DNA from: Bacteroidota bacterium
GTDB taxonomy: Bacteria; Bacteroidota; Bacteroidia; Chitinophagales; Chitinophagaceae
DNA length: 64,000 bases
Direction: 5' to 3'
Assembly (NCBI GenBank): GCA_030706605.1
Contig: JAUZOE010000006.1
Span: 62,001 to 126,000, forward strand
Position 1 is the first letter of the stretch. Each line of letters opens with the position of its first letter. Shown here in pieces: positions 2,257 through 19,178 of this stretch. Made by a program: the position numbers and the translations under genes. A model generated the notes under the pieces. That model was not told the DNA's origin and made no database searches. It saw only the letters and a program-made list of their open reading frames with translations.

Positions 2257-5010
2257 TTACCTGAAATCAAAATACAAAGTTCCTTTCAATGGTATATTCC
2301 CCTGCCTCACATTCATTTGGCTCTGAGGCCCCATTACACTAGCTTTATGAAACTTCGTACCTATGGGAGAAATACCATGCATAAAACCAATATCCCCTTC
2401 AGGAAAAGGCGGACTGACATTATCGTTCTTTGCCGCTTTGGGTTTTTCCGGATGCAGCATTTCAAGATAGATATTGGGCTGATCGGTATAGATAATAAAG
2501 TCACTTTCTTTATTCTGCAATTTTACCCAATATAGCTCTGAATGCCATCCTTTAAATTCAGGATAATTCCAATCCTGGCCGGTTACAGTATTGTTATAAG
2601 CTTTTTGCCAAACACCCAATTGTTGACCTTTTAACCTGTTTTTCCAAACACGGTATGGTCCCCGGCCCAACCATTTCATTCCATTTATTTTTTCTTCCGG
2701 ATAATTGAAAGTGATGCCCATAAAATCTACTACATCTTTTGTGATATAACTATATTCCAGCTTCGGAAGCTGACCGGATTGAAATATCCATTTTACTTGC
2801 AAGCTATCTCCTTCATATAATGGTTCTACCACAAAAATATCTCCCTCCTGCAAATATTTAAATTGACTTAAAGTTTGTTTACTACTTGCTAAAGAAGGAC
2901 CGTCACTTAGAGAAATATTTTTTTTACCATTAAAAATTTTTTGAAGAAACCCGGTTTCTTTATCAAAATAATAAGTAATTCCGTCACAGGAAATCGAGAG
3001 AGATCTCCCATCATCTTTTGTGATAAATGATTGGCTTTTAGGAATAGAGGACATCTTTTTTACAATTTCAGAAGGCATATGCATAGCCCAGCTCCAGGTA
3101 CAAATCGTATCGCCTTTAGCATCCAACACAGAAATATAGAAAGCATCTGCATTGCTTTTTCCAGGCAAGGGAATATGCAAAATTGTTTTTTGACCGGGTG
3201 CAACTGAATATAATTTTGCAGTTCCTTTTCGAATAATTTTTGGGAAAGTATTTTTTTCATTGGCACCAGTAAAAGAAAGCAATTCCCATTTAAAAGAGCA
3301 CTGATTCAAATTGGTATAGATATATCTGTTCTGAACTTCGATAGTGCCATTAAAATTTTTAGAAGCTTTCCTGGAATCAATATATACAGGACTCCAAAGT
3401 TCTTTTATCGTATAATAACTACCTTCTTTTTGACGATATGGTCCAAGTATGCCGTCAGGAGCAAAATTCCCGGCAACATCAATGCTGTCATGCCTGTCGG
3501 CCCGCACAACACCTTCATCAATAAACGACCATAAGAAACCTCCCGCTGCGCGTGGATACTTCATCATCTCATCCCAAAAATCCTCAAGCCCTGCCCCTTG
3601 TCCGCCATCAAATAAACCGTGTATAAATTCAGTCGGGAAAAACACTTCCGTACCATTGGCTACTTCATTTTGTATATATTTATAATCAGGATAGTGCTTG
3701 GTGTTAGTGCCATTAAATTTTTCCCATGGATGAATAACAAGCCTGTTTTGTGGATCGTATAATGCATAATCTCCGTCTAAAGCCCAATTCCAACCTCCTT
3801 CATTTCCATTATCCCAGATTACAATAGATGGATGGTTTACGTCACGAATTACCAATTCCTTAACCAACTTACTTCCAACCGTTGTATCGTATGCGGCCTG
3901 CCAGCCGGTAAGTTCATCTAATACAAATAAGCCAAGCGAATCACACAAATCTAAAAATTCTTTGTCTGGCGGATAATGGCTCATGCGCACAGCATTCATA
4001 TTCATGGCTTTCATTAGCCTGATATCCAGGAGATGAACACTGCGACTTAAAGTGCGCCCGGTTTCGGGCCATTCGCTGTGACGACAAACCCCTTTAAAAA
4101 TCACTTTCTTTCCATTTACATAAAAACCATCACCCTTTCTCAGTTCTGCTGTACGAAAACCAAATCTTTGTTTAATCGAATGGATAATTGCAGTTCCTTG
4201 CTTAATAGAAACTACAGCGTTATAAAGATTGGGCTGCTCCAGATTCCACAATTTTATGTTTGTAAAATGGTGATGCAACACACTATCACCATTGGCCAAA
4301 TGAAAAGAATTACCTACAGGTTTTCCTTTCAAATCATAAACCTGCGCTTCGATGGTTTGTTTAGCGTTGGCATTATTGAATACCTGCATGTTAAAATCAC
4401 CATTTGCTTTTGCGTCAATGGCAACTCTTTCAATAAAATTTTGTGGAACTATTTCTAAATAAACCGGACGAAAAATGCCGCCGAACAACCAAAAGTCCGC
4501 TTTTCGCTCTGCCCTGTTAACAGAAGCGTTAGTTGATTCTTTACTGACAGTAACTTCCAGCAAATTGGTTTTGCCAAAATGAATCATATCAGTAATGTCA
4601 TATTTAAATTCATAAAAACCACCCTGATGTATTGGTCCTGCTGACTGACCGTTAATCTTTACTTTGGTGTCTGTCATTGAAGCCCCAAAGACGATAAAGA
4701 TTTTTTTTTCTTTATACTTTGAGGCCACATTAAAATTGAATTTATACAATCCTTTCTCATCAGGATTATTTTTATCCTCATAATAATTATAAGAACCAAA
4801 ACCCTGCATTTCCCAGCACGAAGGCACCGGTATTTTTGACCATTTGCCACTATTACGCCCTGTAGTACACATAAAATTCCAGGCTACGGTATGGTCCTTA
4901 TCAGTGCCGGATAAATATTGAATAATAGTCTGCTGTGCCAGCGTTTGGTCAGAAACCGCTGACAACAAAAAAATAAAAAAAACTATTTTTTTGAAATAGC
5001 TGCGGTTCAT
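2257..5010 (-). CDS. Secreted GH2 family glycoside hydrolase
   Basis: Family 2 glycoside hydrolase, 917 residues from the chosen start. The ATG at 5010 gives a clean signal peptide (MNRSYFKKIVFFIFLL, cleavage near LAQQ); an in-frame ATG at 5061 would add 17 residues before it. Domain order: sugar-binding jelly roll (about 30-190), Ig-like domain (200-285), TIM barrel starting at RFGFRTAELR, then a linker domain and a Bgal_small-like C-terminus (WLGRGPYRVW). From the chosen start the acid/base is Glu404 in NGNEGG and the nucleophile Glu461 in PTEFIHG. The nucleophile motif differs from LacZ (EYAHAMGN), so the substrate may not be a simple beta-galactoside. It is convergent with the other GH2 gene and divergent from the GH3 gene, which suggests a small glycan-utilisation block. 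Confidence 0.9.
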   Translation of the reverse strand: MNRSYFKKIVFFIFLLSAVSDQTLAQQTIIQYLSGTDKDHTVAWNFMCTTGRNSGKWSKIPVPSCWEMQGFGSYNYYEDKNNPDEKGLYKFNFNVASKYKEKKIFIVFGASMTDTKVKINGQSAGPIHQGGFYEFKYDITDMIHFGKTNLLEVTVSKESTNASVNRAERKADFWLFGGIFRPVYLEIVPQNFIERVAIDAKANGDFNMQVFNNANAKQTIEAQVYDLKGKPVGNSFHLANGDSVLHHHFTNIKLWNLEQPNLYNAVVSIKQGTAIIHSIKQRFGFRTAELRKGDGFYVNGKKVIFKGVCRHSEWPETGRTLSRSVHLLDIRLMKAMNMNAVRMSHYPPDKEFLDLCDSLGLFVLDELTGWQAAYDTTVGSKLVKELVIRDVNHPSIVIWDNGNEGGWNWALDGDYALYDPQNRLVIHPWEKFNGTNTKHYPDYKYIQNEVANGTEVFFPTEFIHGLFDGGQGAGLEDFWDEMMKYPRAAGGFLWSFIDEGVVRADRHDSIDVAGNFAPDGILGPYRQKEGSYYTIKELWSPVYIDSRKASKNFNGTIEVQNRYIYTNLNQCSFKWELLSFTGANEKNTFPKIIRKGTAKLYSVAPGQKTILHIPLPGKSNADAFYISVLDAKGDTICTWSWAMHMPSEIVKKMSSIPKSQSFITKDDGRSLSISCDGITYYFDKETGFLQKIFNGKKNISLSDGPSLASSKQTLSQFKYLQEGDIFVVEPLYEGDSLQVKWIFQSGQLPKLEYSYITKDVVDFMGITFNYPEEKINGMKWLGRGPYRVWKNRLKGQQLGVWQKAYNNTVTGQDWNYPEFKGWHSELYWVKLQNKESDFIIYTDQPNIYLEMLHPEKPKAAKNDNVSPPFPEGDIGFMHGISPIGTKFHKASVMGPQSQMNVRQGNIPLKGTLYFDFR

Positions 5011-13388: not shown

Positions 13389-14216
13389 TTAATCTGCCAA
13401 TTTCACAATATCTTCAATAGTCATAATCCTTTTAATTAATCCTGCTTCCATTGCAGGTGGGACACGTAATGTTTTGTGAATCTTTACGAAGTTGTAATAA
13501 ACGAAGTGTAAAGCAATTGCATAACAATGATTTTCAATTTTCTTACTGAAACCATTTGTAAGCCTTGTAAATCTTCTCATATGCATACGCATAGTTAAGT
13601 TCTGCCTTTCTACATAAGATGTTGAAATATGTTTTGGGTCAGGATTGCCGGAAATGGCATGTTTCTTTGCTCCTGTACATTCAGCAGGGCTATATTTCTT
13701 TTCATTACCTGCACCTTCGCTACCGCCATATAATTTAATCAATTGTGCAAAGTCAATCTGGCTACCAAAGTTTTCAGTAACCGCTTCTAAATAGGCTTTT
13801 AATCCGTCTGTCGTTAATTGAACCCTATTCTTTAATCTTGTTGCAACATCATTCATAAAAATATTTGCTGAATCAGCATCCCTATTGCCAACAAACCATG
13901 AAACAACCAGTTTTGTATCTGCATCTATGCCTACCCATGTCCATGCATCGCCAGCACCACCTTCTTTTTGTTCTTGTGTAGCGTTCTTATCCTTAGCATA
14001 AACAAAACTCCAAATTTCGTCACACTGAATACGTTTGGTTGAAACATTTACCACTTTCTCATTGTGGAATTTTTGGCAAGCCCTGCCTACGTCAACCAGA
14101 AGTTTTGTTACTGTATTGATTGATACATCAGCTATTCTTGATGCAGCACGCAAAGATGAACCTTCAACCAGAAGATTAATGATTTGCACTTTTTTAGATA
14201 TAGGTAACTTATTCAT
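13389..14216 (-). CDS. IS1-family transposase
   Basis: 275-residue DDE transposase. A helix-turn-helix at about 18-40 (VEGSSLRAASRIADVSINTV) is followed by the IS1 catalytic core: Asp66 in CDEIWSFV, Asp137 in TTDGLK, and Glu203 in SYVERQNLTMR, with the downstream Arg-rich RMHMRRFTRLTNGFSKK typical of the family. The ATG at 14216 is chosen over longer in-frame options because a TTG-N20-TATCTTTG promoter ends only 4 nt before it, leaving no room for further upstream coding. Unlike classical IS1, it is a single frame and needs no -1 frameshift. The catalytic residues are intact. Confidence 0.92.
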   Translation of the reverse strand: MNKLPISKKVQIINLLVEGSSLRAASRIADVSINTVTKLLVDVGRACQKFHNEKVVNVSTKRIQCDEIWSFVYAKDKNATQEQKEGGAGDAWTWVGIDADTKLVVSWFVGNRDADSANIFMNDVATRLKNRVQLTTDGLKAYLEAVTENFGSQIDFAQLIKLYGGSEGAGNEKKYSPAECTGAKKHAISGNPDPKHISTSYVERQNLTMRMHMRRFTRLTNGFSKKIENHCYAIALHFVYYNFVKIHKTLRVPPAMEAGLIKRIMTIEDIVKLAD

Positions 14217-14220
14217 AAAA

Positions 14221-14251
14221 CAAAGATAATACATTATGCTTAAACGGTCAA
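14221..14251 (-). promoter_or_regulatory. Transposase promoter
   Basis: On the minus strand TTG (14251-14249), a 20-nt spacer and TATCTTTG (14228-14221) form a textbook Bacteroidota -33/-7 promoter, 4 nt from the ATG, so the mRNA is probably leaderless. The -33 element lies inside a palindrome. Confidence 0.7.
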
Positions 14252-14259
14252 GCATAATG
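14232..14259. promoter_or_regulatory. Palindrome overlapping the transposase promoter
   Basis: CATTATGCTT, 8-nt spacer AAACGGTC, AAGCATAATG: a perfect 10-bp inverted repeat over the -33 element. The core TGCTT-N8-AAGCA recurs at 16019-16036 in front of the KGG-type gene. Candidate operator. Confidence 0.55.
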
Positions 14260-14277
14260 TTCATTTTATTTATCCAC

Positions 14278-14296
14278 ATTTAAAAGAGACACTATA
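14278..14296. repeat. Degenerate internal copy of the IS end
   Basis: The stretch shares the block GAGACACTA (14286-14294) and 12 of 19 positions with the right inverted repeat. Its distance from the upstream palindrome (32 bp) is close to that at the true right end (27 bp). It looks like an older right end of a smaller IS. Confidence 0.4.
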
Positions 14297-14775: not shown

Positions 14776-15750
14776 ATGGAAAGTGAAATAGTTATTTACA
14801 AGACAAAAAACGGTGATACTAAAATAGATGTAAGACTTGAAAATAAAAATGTATGGCTTAGTCAAAGCCAAATGGCTATACTATATCAAACATCTGTTTC
14901 CAATATATCAAAACATCTAACTAAAATATTCAAAGAAAAAGAATTGGAGGAAAATACAGTTATTGACTTTTTTTCAACAACTGCATCAGACGGCAAATTT
15001 TATTCAACACAATATTATAATCTGGATGCCATTATTTCTATTGGATACCGAGTAAAATCAACTATTGCAACTCAATTTAGAATATGGGCAACTAAACACC
15101 TTGCCGAATATTTGAAAAAGGGATTTATTATAAATGATGAAAAATTGAAGCATGGAGAAGAAGCTGACCATTTTTCTGAGTTAGTTGAAAGAATACGTGA
15201 TATACGATCTTCTGAAAGGGTTTTTTATCAAAAAGTAAAAGATATTTATTGCACAAGTGTTGACTATGACCCAAAATCTGAAACTACACAGAAGTTTTTT
15301 GCTGTTGTGCAAAATAAACTTCATTGGGCAATTCATAAGCACACTGCTCCTGAATTAATCTGTGAAAGAGCAAAGGCTGAAAATGCGAATATGGGCTTAA
15401 CAAACTGGAAACGAGACAAAATAAGAATAGATGACATTGTCATTGCGAAAAATTATTTAGCACCAAATGAACTTGCTCAATTAAATCTTTTGGTAGAACA
15501 ATATCTCGCTTTTGCTGAACTCCAGGCATTTATGAGAAAGCCAATGCATATGAAAGATTGGGAAAAAAAGTTAAATGATTTTCTAACAATTAATGAACGA
15601 GAAATTTTAGAAGATGCAGGAAAAATTAGTAGAAAATTAGCGGAGGAGTTAGCAAGAAAAGAATATGATAAATATATATATCACCTTAAAGAGATAGATA
15701 TTATTGAGAGCTATAAAGAATTAGAAAATGAACTAAAAAGTCTAAAATAA
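14776..15750 (+). CDS. RhuM family protein, IS cargo
   Basis: 324-residue member of the RhuM family, named after a Salmonella pathogenicity-island gene of unknown biochemical function. The N-terminus (about 5-100) has the family block DVRLENKNVWLSQSQMA, which looks like a winged helix-turn-helix, with FFSTTASDGKFYSTQYYNLDAIISIGYRV. The C-terminal half carries the conserved FYQKVKDIYCTSVDYD, HWAIHKHTAPE and NYLAPNELAQLNLLVEQYL. Length is normal and no part is missing. It is the second gene of a two-gene operon inside the IS element. RhuM homologues are frequent in mobile DNA and next to Fic-type toxins; a stabilisation or defence role here is inference. Confidence 0.85.
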   Translation: MESEIVIYKTKNGDTKIDVRLENKNVWLSQSQMAILYQTSVSNISKHLTKIFKEKELEENTVIDFFSTTASDGKFYSTQYYNLDAIISIGYRVKSTIATQFRIWATKHLAEYLKKGFIINDEKLKHGEEADHFSELVERIRDIRSSERVFYQKVKDIYCTSVDYDPKSETTQKFFAVVQNKLHWAIHKHTAPELICERAKAENANMGLTNWKRDKIRIDDIVIAKNYLAPNELAQLNLLVEQYLAFAELQAFMRKPMHMKDWEKKLNDFLTINEREILEDAGKISRKLAEELARKEYDKYIYHLKEIDIIESYKELENELKSLK

Positions 15751-17033: not shown

Positions 17034-17066
17034 AAAAAAAAGGGCCAGCCCCTAACGCTGACCCTT
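17034..17066 (-). terminator. Intrinsic terminator of the metalloprotease gene
   Basis: On the minus strand AAGGGTCAGC, a 7-nt loop and GCTGGCCCTT (one G-T pair) are followed by a T run, 20 bp after the protease stop codon. Confidence 0.75.
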
Positions 17067-17086
17067 AACTTACACATGAATCTACC

Positions 17087-18679
17087 TTACAGTTTTACAA
17101 TTCTTTGAGTTGTTCTTTGGGAGTTACTTATTAATTGAAGGAAATAAATTCCATTAGGACAATTATTGATATTGATGTTATTGAATCCACTATTAGCATT
17201 TCCGGTTTTCATTACTCTTCCACTCATATCGGCTAATTGAAACTTATAATTCTCTGATGCATTTACTGTAATATCAGAATGAACTAATGTAGATATAGTA
17301 AATATTTTTCCGGTGTTTTGTGTAGCTTTCAATGAAATTATATTTGAATAAACTACCTGTCCTTTTACAGAGGTTACTTTTAATCTATAGAAAACAGTTT
17401 GATTCAAAAAAGGTGTATAGTCAAATACTTTAGCTCCGGATGATAACGAAGTAAGTGTAGAAAAAATTGTTCCATCAGATGAACTTTCTAAAGATAAATT
17501 AGCAATTGGCTCATCAGAGATTATATCCCAGCTAAGATCATGCTTTTCTTTATCTATTTTACCTGAAAGCAACACCTTGGTTACAGGCGTAACACTTAAT
17601 GGCGCATAGGTTCCTGAAATTTTATAAGAGCCCAGGCTTCCATAATTTGTTGTGTTTACATTCCCAGTGCCTTGTAATACAACATAATAAATACCTGAAC
17701 TTAAAACCGTATCAATAGAAACATTTAAAAGATCGGAAGGGTCATAAACCTGTATTGCCTGCATTGATGAATCAAGCAGAGTGACTTTTACATCAAGGTC
17801 TGCCCCATCATTATTAGGACCTACAGAGAAGGGATTTGCATTAAGGCGAAAAACTCCATCTTTAGGAAGGTTTAATTCAAATGCATCTTTATCAGTACTT
17901 GTGGTAATAATTCCGTCTACCGAAAATTGCGTATTAGTGACGGTGAGTAATGTCGGGTTCGAAGCAGGATCATCCGAATAATCATCAGGGCGATAAGTAA
18001 ACCCATTCCTTGAAGTGATGATAGAAAGGTTGTCCTGGTCAGCAGCACAGCCACTCGGTGTAGGACCATTATTCCAACCGGAAAGGTTTCTGTAATAACT
18101 ATTGCCCATAACCGGGGCCCAACCAATTTGCCCTGTGCCAACGCCATCATTATAAGCAGTTATTAAAGCACAGGTACCACTATATTTGGCCTGGTGCGAA
18201 AGTCCTACTGTATGACCACTTTCGTGTGAGCAACATTCAGCTACATTTTTTGTGCTATAAGATAACCTGTCAGGAAATACAAATCCGGGAGTATCATCGC
18301 CCCAGATAAATGAGCCAGTATACGCGACTCCGCCAACACCCGCATACCAACTACTGGTAAGTGTAATAATTATTCTCATTCTTTGAGTTAACGGAGCTTT
18401 CAAAAATACTGTTGAATCAGTTGTAATATTTATATTAAAGGGTCTGTAATCTTCTGCTACACGATTAAATATTTCAGTTATTTGTGCATCATTGAACCCT
18501 GATGGAGTACAGTAAAAAGGAGTACCGCCATTCCAGGATGATGCATTGACAAATTGCCCATCAAAGTCAAGAAATATTGTAGCTTTTGCTGAAGGGAAAC
18601 TGCTTAAAGCAGGGAGGCTGATTGCTTTGAAAGAAAGCAAAACTAACATTACAAAAAATAGGGGTTTAAAGGTTTTCAT
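17087..18679 (-). CDS. Secreted metzincin-type zinc metalloprotease with T9SS tail
   Basis: 530-residue extracellular protease. A signal peptide (about 1-21) leads straight into the catalytic domain (FLDFDGQ at 36-42) with no recognisable propeptide. The zinc site is HESGHTVGLSH at 152-162, the HExxHxxGxxH metzincin signature. A pre-peptidase C-terminal (PPC) domain covers about 245-355 (DAFELNLPKDGVFRL). An Fn3-like segment follows, and the last 75 or so residues (FQLADMSGRVMKTG, NGIYFLQL, QRIVKL) are a T9SS type A sorting domain that directs export across the outer membrane. A small secreted protein gene lies 52 bp upstream on the same strand. Confidence 0.88.
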   Translation of the reverse strand: MKTFKPLFFVMLVLLSFKAISLPALSSFPSAKATIFLDFDGQFVNASSWNGGTPFYCTPSGFNDAQITEIFNRVAEDYRPFNINITTDSTVFLKAPLTQRMRIIITLTSSWYAGVGGVAYTGSFIWGDDTPGFVFPDRLSYSTKNVAECCSHESGHTVGLSHQAKYSGTCALITAYNDGVGTGQIGWAPVMGNSYYRNLSGWNNGPTPSGCAADQDNLSIITSRNGFTYRPDDYSDDPASNPTLLTVTNTQFSVDGIITTSTDKDAFELNLPKDGVFRLNANPFSVGPNNDGADLDVKVTLLDSSMQAIQVYDPSDLLNVSIDTVLSSGIYYVVLQGTGNVNTTNYGSLGSYKISGTYAPLSVTPVTKVLLSGKIDKEKHDLSWDIISDEPIANLSLESSSDGTIFSTLTSLSSGAKVFDYTPFLNQTVFYRLKVTSVKGQVVYSNIISLKATQNTGKIFTISTLVHSDITVNASENYKFQLADMSGRVMKTGNANSGFNNININNCPNGIYFLQLISNSQRTTQRIVKL

Positions 18680-18731
18680 GGCTTAGGATTTAGGGTATCG
18701 CCGGTCAATTTTTATAAAGGATCCATATCGA

Positions 18732-19178
18732 CTATTGATCCTGTAAGAGATCATTAGTTTGAATTTTGTTTAGTGCATAATTTCCCTCATTGTCTTTCAC
18801 TAATTCATAACCATCCGCATAATCCTGGTTAATTAAGCGTCCTACATAGGTGATGGTTTTATCATCATTTATTCTTTTTGAAATAGAAAGTAACGCATTG
18901 TCTAAAGAGGTAGATTTTATAACAACACTGTATAAATTATCATATCGCTTTACTGAAGAAGTTATGATTCCTGTAAAATCAAGATTTGAAAATGCGATTT
19001 CTATCCTGGAGCCAACTTTTGCTTCGAAGGCTTTCCCAAGTTCTGTTACCGGGGTAGGCAATTTATTAGAAAAACGACTGAATAATTGCGGTTTTGAGGG
19101 TGTTGCTACCTGTGCTTTTGTTGTATACGAAGACACTACTAAAGTGAATATCGCTAACAATTTGCAGACGATTTTCAT
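18732..19178 (-). CDS. Small secreted protein paired with the metalloprotease
   Basis: 148 residues from the ATG at 19178, which gives a signal peptide (MKIVCKLLAIFTLVVSSYTTKAQ); an upstream in-frame start at 19211 would place 11 polar residues before it. The mature part has a strand-rich middle (GSRIEIAFSNLDFTGIITSS, YDNLYSVVIKS) and ends ITYVGRLINQDYADGYELVK. No domain is assigned with confidence, but this pattern recalls the pro-region of Bacteroidota metalloproteases. It precedes the protease gene by 52 bp, probably in one operon, so it may be a separately encoded pro-domain or inhibitor. That role is inference. Confidence 0.7.
   Translation of the reverse strand: MKIVCKLLAIFTLVVSSYTTKAQVATPSKPQLFSRFSNKLPTPVTELGKAFEAKVGSRIEIAFSNLDFTGIITSSVKRYDNLYSVVIKSTSLDNALLSISKRINDDKTITYVGRLINQDYADGYELVKDNEGNYALNKIQTNDLLQDQ

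Follow-up and report, generated by a model that had tools for sequence, protein, structure and literature searches.

Within the window, the whole stretch of 64,000 nucleotides analyzed here, a secreted metzincin protease without a pro-region is preceded by a separate gene for a small exported protein. Considering this pairing, the profile homology of the small protein to a domain fused to other proteases of the same family, and its modeled fold, we think it likely that the small protein serves as the protease's pro-domain, encoded by its own gene, which keeps the enzyme latent, and probably aids its folding, until export. The preliminary description had proposed a split zymogen or a dedicated inhibitor; as anatomy this is well supported by pairing, homology, and fold, from which we infer binding and inhibition.

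Both genes lie on the minus strand, as do all of their features given here. The small-protein gene (18732 to 19178) encodes 148 amino acids counted from an ATG, the mechanical open reading frame (ORF) opening at an upstream TTG. The N-terminus resembles a cleaved signal peptide (residues 1 to 22, 19113 to 19178, read from the sequence), and a TKA-Q motif suggests cleavage before Gln23, with no Cys lipobox; in A1, the small-protein group, Q23 never varies and A22 hardly does. Seven of 92 small proteins fit a loose lipobox pattern, but in each of them the Cys precedes the apparent cleavage site. Mature residues 16 to 117 (18759 to 19064) form a helix and seven strands according to the model and to profile and structure matches; this part is the stretch that matches fused pro-domains and solved pro-domain or chaperone structures, and the structure matches suggest a barrel-shaped core. 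The C-terminal tail (residues 141 to 148, 18735 to 18758), ending Gln-Asp-Gln, is the proposed active-site plug. After an intergenic gap of 52 bp (18680 to 18731) follows the protease gene (17087 to 18679), whose product of 530 amino acids contains the catalytic domain (residues 22 to 235, 17975 to 18616, delimited by sequence alignment with relatives), the zinc-binding motif HESGHTVGLSH (residues 152 to 162, 18194 to 18226), which is kept in relatives, a Met-turn-like WAPVMG (residues 187 to 192, 18104 to 18121), and a type A sorting domain of the type IX secretion system (T9SS; residues 470 to 529, 17093 to 17272). A terminator-like hairpin with a T-run (17040 to 17066) lies directly 3' of the protease gene, and a hairpin search of the region found no such site in the gap between the genes; the region held three terminator-like hairpins versus 1.9 expected, and the terminator evidence is only suggestive. 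An IS1-type transposase gene (13392 to 14279, minus strand) and a RhuM-family gene (14776 to 15747, plus strand) lie near the pair.

The alignment of the catalytic domain starts at about residue 22, which bears out the earlier observation that this domain directly follows the signal peptide with no pro-region between them. M12/reprolysin Pfam models matched the window protease below their cutoffs only, and solved adamalysins were reached by sequence at an E value of 0.6 at best, so that coverage of the catalytic family is poor. The metzincin motif HExxHxxGxxH was present in the window protease and in 86 of the 89 partnered proteases, the other three having the Gly (L124 and L125) or the Glu (L121) replaced. 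Similarly, the pattern W-[AGS]-P-[IVL]-M-G, which probably acts as the Met-turn, was found in the window protease and 84 of the 89; two of the remaining five are cut before the site, and three differ only around the Met. The metzincin fold was seen in the model of a fused relative (L212, residues 142 to 328; adamalysins at Z ∼11). As for export, the sorting domain of the window protease matched TIGR04183 with an E value of 1.7e-12 and 47.1 bits (cutoff 23), and 30 of the 32 partnered proteases scanned carry the domain; among 44 small proteins, the NCBIfam scan listed it for not one. The genome itself encodes SprA (SprA_N, 523.6 bits) and matches the T9SS sorting domain in 29 places, indicating that a T9SS export route exists. 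Two irregular loci were seen among the split proteases: one pair (L121 of G242, 2387 to 3756) retains its small protein beside a protease of 316 amino acids with HQIGH for HExxH, and an in-frame TAG interrupts the protease of another (L069 of G155).

Lack of a conserved gene pair in relatives, together with lack of similarity to any pro-domain, had been set beforehand as what would refute the proposal. Neither was borne out: the pair proved to be conserved, and the small protein resembles a pro-domain, as described below. Among 294 genomes of the window's taxonomic family, searched at an E value of ≤0.01 for the small protein and ≤0.001 for the catalytic domain, the former was detected in 90 and the latter in 89; both occurred in 81, the small protein only in 9, the protease only in 8, and neither in 196 (Fisher P = 5e-52, relatedness ignored). 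The protease was next downstream on the same strand for 82 of 92 small-protein matches, with a median of 146 bp between the matched stretches. The ten unpaired matches comprised one genuine copy without a protease (G286) and nine weak single-sequence matches inside ORFs of 330 to 1033 amino acids. The latter were considered as fusions and rejected: eight of them, all except G125, were fetched and gave no profile match below an E value of 0.05, for which reason they were taken as chance. With more loci and pairs from viral contigs added, 89 of 92 distinct small proteins had a protease downstream, at a median gap of 52 bp; this count leaves out ORFs shorter than 90 amino acids and small ORFs cut by the locus end, those of G120 and G201 among them, so that the proteases there count as unpaired. 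Three copies had no partner in sight, namely, two at contig ends (L123 and L016, the protease fragment of the latter appearing in L128) and the G286 orphan. This orphan (L122, 3379 to 3810) has no protease neighbor and a nonacidic tail.

Four of the 89 pairs came from IMG/VR contigs, and one scan of viral contigs found nothing. On two IMG/VR contigs, a lipoprotein protease, a small protein, and a split protease stand as three genes in a row (L145, 1437 to 4335; L148, 1478 to 4335). At the order level, 17 of 198 genomes matched, 15 of them inside the family; outside it, the copies in G377 are real, and two of these are paired. One further order-level match (G386, L127) covers the N-terminal part alone and was not counted, and a class-level match (G708) was rejected because it falls on the signal-peptide end of a protein that is unrelated. 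Sensitivity outside the family was limited, because the order and class searches scored 15 to 19 first-look candidates per genome.

The genes beyond the pair vary: a CoA-binding gene lies upstream, as in the window, in 58 of the 89 pairs, is absent from 25, and falls beyond too short a flank in 6. The pair thus stays together as its surroundings change. Pairing by itself is no proof of interaction, and one copy is an orphan, so the small protein might be a coexpressed accessory with another role, such as substrate binding or surface anchoring, kept adjacent for regulatory reasons. We regard this as very improbable, since the varying flanks argue against it, as do the homology of the small protein to the fused domain and the either-or distribution of the two, both of which are described below.

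Family databases said little about the small protein. It had no match in Pfam or NCBIfam up to an E value of 10. Thirty members gave nothing usable in Pfam (best E value, 0.0017, for a single member), and 44 members gave only scattered single matches in NCBIfam, the strongest of which (1.6e-6) was to a phage capsid model. The family profile reached no PDB sequence at an E value of ≤0.5 (best, 0.55), with no 6o38 chain among those at ≤10, and six fused N-terminal domains likewise yielded nothing usable in Pfam. Sequence conservation is far lower in the small protein, with identities of 30 to 36% versus 66 to 72% for the enzyme (G034, G126, G193, G281, and one copy of G241).

The preliminary description had noted that the small protein recalls the pro-region of metalloproteases and had suggested a profile search against pro-domains, and such a comparison did match its profile to the N-terminal domains that are fused to other proteases of this family. 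In hhalign, an alignment of 92 small proteins against one of 78 fused domains scored 33.0 (E value, 4.2e-5; probability, 69.5%) over 105 columns that run from the first helix to the end, versus at most 18.7 in 200 shuffles and 9.8 to 16.3 for five other segments of partnered proteases. With 44 versus 11 rows and the mature part only, the score was 31.2 versus at most 19.9 in 200 column shuffles, and with 30 versus 6 rows the match was weak (probability, 14%; E value, 0.002). The probability rose with the number of rows, from 14% through 55% to 69.5%; we count the modest size of this match, and the lower values of the thinner alignments, against the pro-domain reading. Judging from these profiles, the small protein and the fused domain are homologues, and position and fold suggest that the latter is a pro-domain.

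This homology also bears on a further alternative, that the small protein is an independently evolved inhibitor comparable to the potempins or AprI/BamI, one that does not derive from a pro-domain and only shields the periplasm of its producer. Its gene layout resembles that of the potempins of Tannerella forsythia, small lipoproteins encoded directly upstream of the KLIKK proteases, whose specific inhibitors they are according to an excerpt of PMC7296668; here, too, a small exported protein is encoded directly upstream of a secreted protease. It also resembles that of BamI-Mep72 and AprI-AprA of Pseudomonas aeruginosa, in which an inhibitor gene stands beside that of a secreted metzincin; excerpts of PMC4334185 state that BamI relieves Mep72 toxicity in Escherichia coli and cite a title by which AprI acts via a zinc-NH2 bond. 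Unlike the potempins and their partners, however, the window pair has no lipobox and a protease ending in RIVKL rather than KLIKK, and unlike the window protease, Mep72 exits by the type II secretion system (T2SS), the likeness being one of gene layout. None of the structure matches listed for the small protein was named as a potempin, an absence that is no evidence either way. Given the missing lipobox and the homology, by profile, to the domain fused to relatives of this protease, which argues for descent from a pro-domain, we consider an independent inhibitor quite improbable.

Models of the two forms were built from separate alignments. The mature small protein of the window (5 small-protein rows, no fused row) was modeled with a pLDDT of 86.2 and a pTM of 0.78 and showed a short strand, a helix (21 to 29), seven strands (35 to 117), and a tail whose last residues are of low confidence. 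The fused relative L212 (47 rows, all relatives from the scan with the fused query) gave a pLDDT of 83.9 and a pTM of 0.65, with a helix (4 to 14), seven strands (26 to 103), Cys109, and a disordered linker (110 to 130, pLDDT <50) ahead of the adamalysin-like catalytic domain. The order of a helix and seven strands is the same in both independent models, so the predicted fold as well as the profiles agrees with the resemblance to a pro-region.

In Foldseek searches of the PDB, the small protein had no match at an E value of ≤0.001; its first six rows were chains of 6o38 (E values, 0.0099 to 0.029; TM ∼0.5). In VIA-align, 6o38 led with a Z score of 9.7 (96 residues, rmsd 2.8 Å), followed by ADAM17 entries (Z, 6.3 and 6.2; 93 to 103 residues), with pro-fragilysin at 4.6. 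For the fused model, the first Foldseek rows were ADAM17 and fragilysin (E values, 3.5e-5 to 9e-4, in alignments of ∼400 columns with gaps and TM ∼0.3), and 6o38 appeared at 5.6e-4. Several points count against these matches: Foldseek gave the small protein nothing at or below 0.001, its model was built on 5 rows, and the Z scores of ADAM17 and pro-fragilysin are little above, or within, those of unrelated lipid-transfer folds (5.0 to 5.6) and barrels, which together span 4 to 5.6. In these model comparisons, the 6o38 match stands clear, and those to ADAM17 and fragilysin lend support without being decisive alone. Entry 6O38 is the structure of the CpaA-CpaB complex, as an excerpt of PMC7542363 indicates, and the size of the matched small chains and the entry title suggest that they are CpaB.

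CpaA and CpaB of Acinetobacter resemble the window pair in that a separate protein, with the same fold by model, is encoded beside an adamalysin-like secreted metzincin. According to partial texts of the sources, the C-terminal tail of CpaB blocks the CpaA active site (PMC7542363), and CpaB is required for CpaA secretion (PMC4713064). With a chaperone chain as the best fold match, the small protein could be a dedicated folding or secretion chaperone, like CpaB or the lipase foldases, for which inhibition is a side effect. CpaB differs, however, in being membrane-anchored, encoded downstream of its protease, and tied to the T2SS (same excerpt of PMC4713064), whereas here the small gene is upstream, its product looks cleaved and exported, and the partner carries a T9SS tag. 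A chaperone of this kind appears unlikely as the whole explanation, and it overlaps with the pro-domain reading because pro-domains can do both jobs.

The protease family shows either a partner gene or a fused domain. For the proteases with a partner, 89 in all, the match to the catalytic profile would start at residues 19 to 43 (in one, whose start codon is uncertain, at 77), and none of them matches the fused-domain profile. In the fused relatives, the catalytic domain begins at about residue 160, with ∼140 residues ahead of it, and in six such loci of the family no small-protein neighbor was found. A genome scan with a fused query yielded 78 fused loci, from the best 80 of 579 relatives, belonging to Flavobacterium, Chitinophaga, Niastella, Hymenobacter, Chryseobacterium, and others; the N-terminal domain was carried by all 78, a result that is partly built in because the query contained the fused domain. 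The unbiased check of the pattern was a search of 247 genomes of the phylum with the catalytic domain only, combined with the fused-domain profile: the former reached 5 genomes outside the family, and the latter matched the same ORFs in exactly these 5. Among 83 fused loci, none showed a small gene of its own beside the protease, and in 5 of them the small-protein profile weakly matched the fused N-terminal domain itself (E values, 0.005 to 0.05, mostly colinear).

Two further groups lie outside this pattern. Lipoprotein proteases with a short pro-segment, and with no partner gene ahead of them, form a third class. The pro-segment of L092 to L097, L101, L106, L145 (1437 to 2447), and L148 (1478 to 2446) contains a Cys, perhaps a short cysteine switch; a [TSAR]C[DSK]F pattern occurs in 8 of 12 listed lipoprotein relatives, and L143 and L152 are without it. 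Neither a partner nor a fused domain was seen in L108 of G111 or in five loci on phage-like IMG/VR contigs (L144, L147, and L149 to L151). In these five, the catalytic domain lies near the protein start with no apparent signal peptide, and several adjoin ORFs resembling phage structural genes.

A quick tree was built from 95 catalytic domains (sequences kept below ∼78% identity within each group, root not inferred); on it, split versus fused required one change and all four classes required seven. The lipoprotein class fell among the split proteases and L108, on a long branch, among the fused ones; deep branches were weak, with a support of 43. One gene may have been split into two or, in reverse, two may have been fused once.

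The two forms differ in how they end. A Cys lies directly past the last strand in all 78 fused domains (from the best 80 of 579 relatives), at the position expected for a cysteine switch. The mature small protein of the window has no Cys and ends Gln-Asp-Gln, with the Asp next to last; that it lacks the Cys invariant in the fused form, and that its last residue is Gln, counts against the pro-domain reading. Not every pro-domain uses a Cys. Of the 89 partnered small proteins, 74 end in Glu or Asp, 83 have one of these within the last four residues, and 11 have a Cys within the last six; neither an acidic end nor a Cys was seen in the partnered L273 and L110, in the orphan L020, or in L123, the copy at a contig end. 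For rough comparison, Asp or Glu was the final residue in 7 of 40 window ORFs of at least 200 amino acids and in 2 of 72 neighboring ORFs (mostly of one family). These sequences suggest that an acidic C-terminus may take the place of the Cys in the zinc cleft. No Cys or His covering the zinc, of the sort that the preliminary description had in mind, is evident, and the acidic tail is the candidate in its stead.

As described in excerpts of PMC11248996 and PMC5159831, the pro-domain of ADAM17 sits as a barrel on the protease, with Cys184 on the zinc and a C-terminal loop filling the substrate groove, and it still binds and inhibits as a separate chain. ADAM17 and pro-fragilysin of Bacteroides share with the window pair a pro-domain ahead of a metzincin domain, but they hold both in one chain, and ADAM17 uses a zinc-binding Cys that the small protein of the window lacks. 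The nearest comparison is with the fused proteases of Flavobacterium, Chitinophaga, Niastella, and Hymenobacter, which have the homologous domain and the same catalytic family and differ in the single chain and in the Cys at the domain end. A full-text search of CC-licensed PMC articles, with most subscription journals outside its scope, found no description of the pair. The best reading is that the pair is a split zymogen of a T9SS metzincin, a variant on the known regulation by pro-domains and CpaB-type proteins.

By analogy with ADAM17, CpaB, and BamI, the small protein should provide latency, and perhaps help with folding, in the periplasm. We infer binding, inhibition, a tail in the cleft, and release at export, which may proceed as follows. 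Both products would be exported to the periplasm, where the folded core of the small protein would dock on the catalytic domain, probably aiding its folding, and the short acidic tail would enter the active-site cleft, leaving the enzyme latent. The T9SS-tagged protease would then cross the outer membrane, and the small protein, having no T9SS domain, would most likely be left behind or shed. Since only the protease carries the tag, this separation during export is the likely activation step, after which the protease would be active outside the cell. The genuine orphan (G286) and the pair whose protease lacks the catalytic Glu (L121) count against such a scheme. In its complete form, as a two-gene zymogen retained across much of a bacterial family, with a pro-domain acting in trans, an acidic C-terminus replacing the Cys that is the presumed zinc ligand of the one-chain form, and latency ended without proteolysis by T9SS export of the tagged partner, the proposal is tentative and falls just short of being probable.

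If true, the proposal would establish a widespread but so far undescribed family of metzincin pro-domains that stand alone and would link the fold-sharing regulators represented by the ADAM17 pro-domain, pro-fragilysin, and CpaB. The zymogen would be one activated through sorting and not through cleavage. Moreover, the enzyme occurs naturally both as one chain and as two, which offers a ready comparison, and such small proteins are candidate specific inhibitors of metalloproteases.
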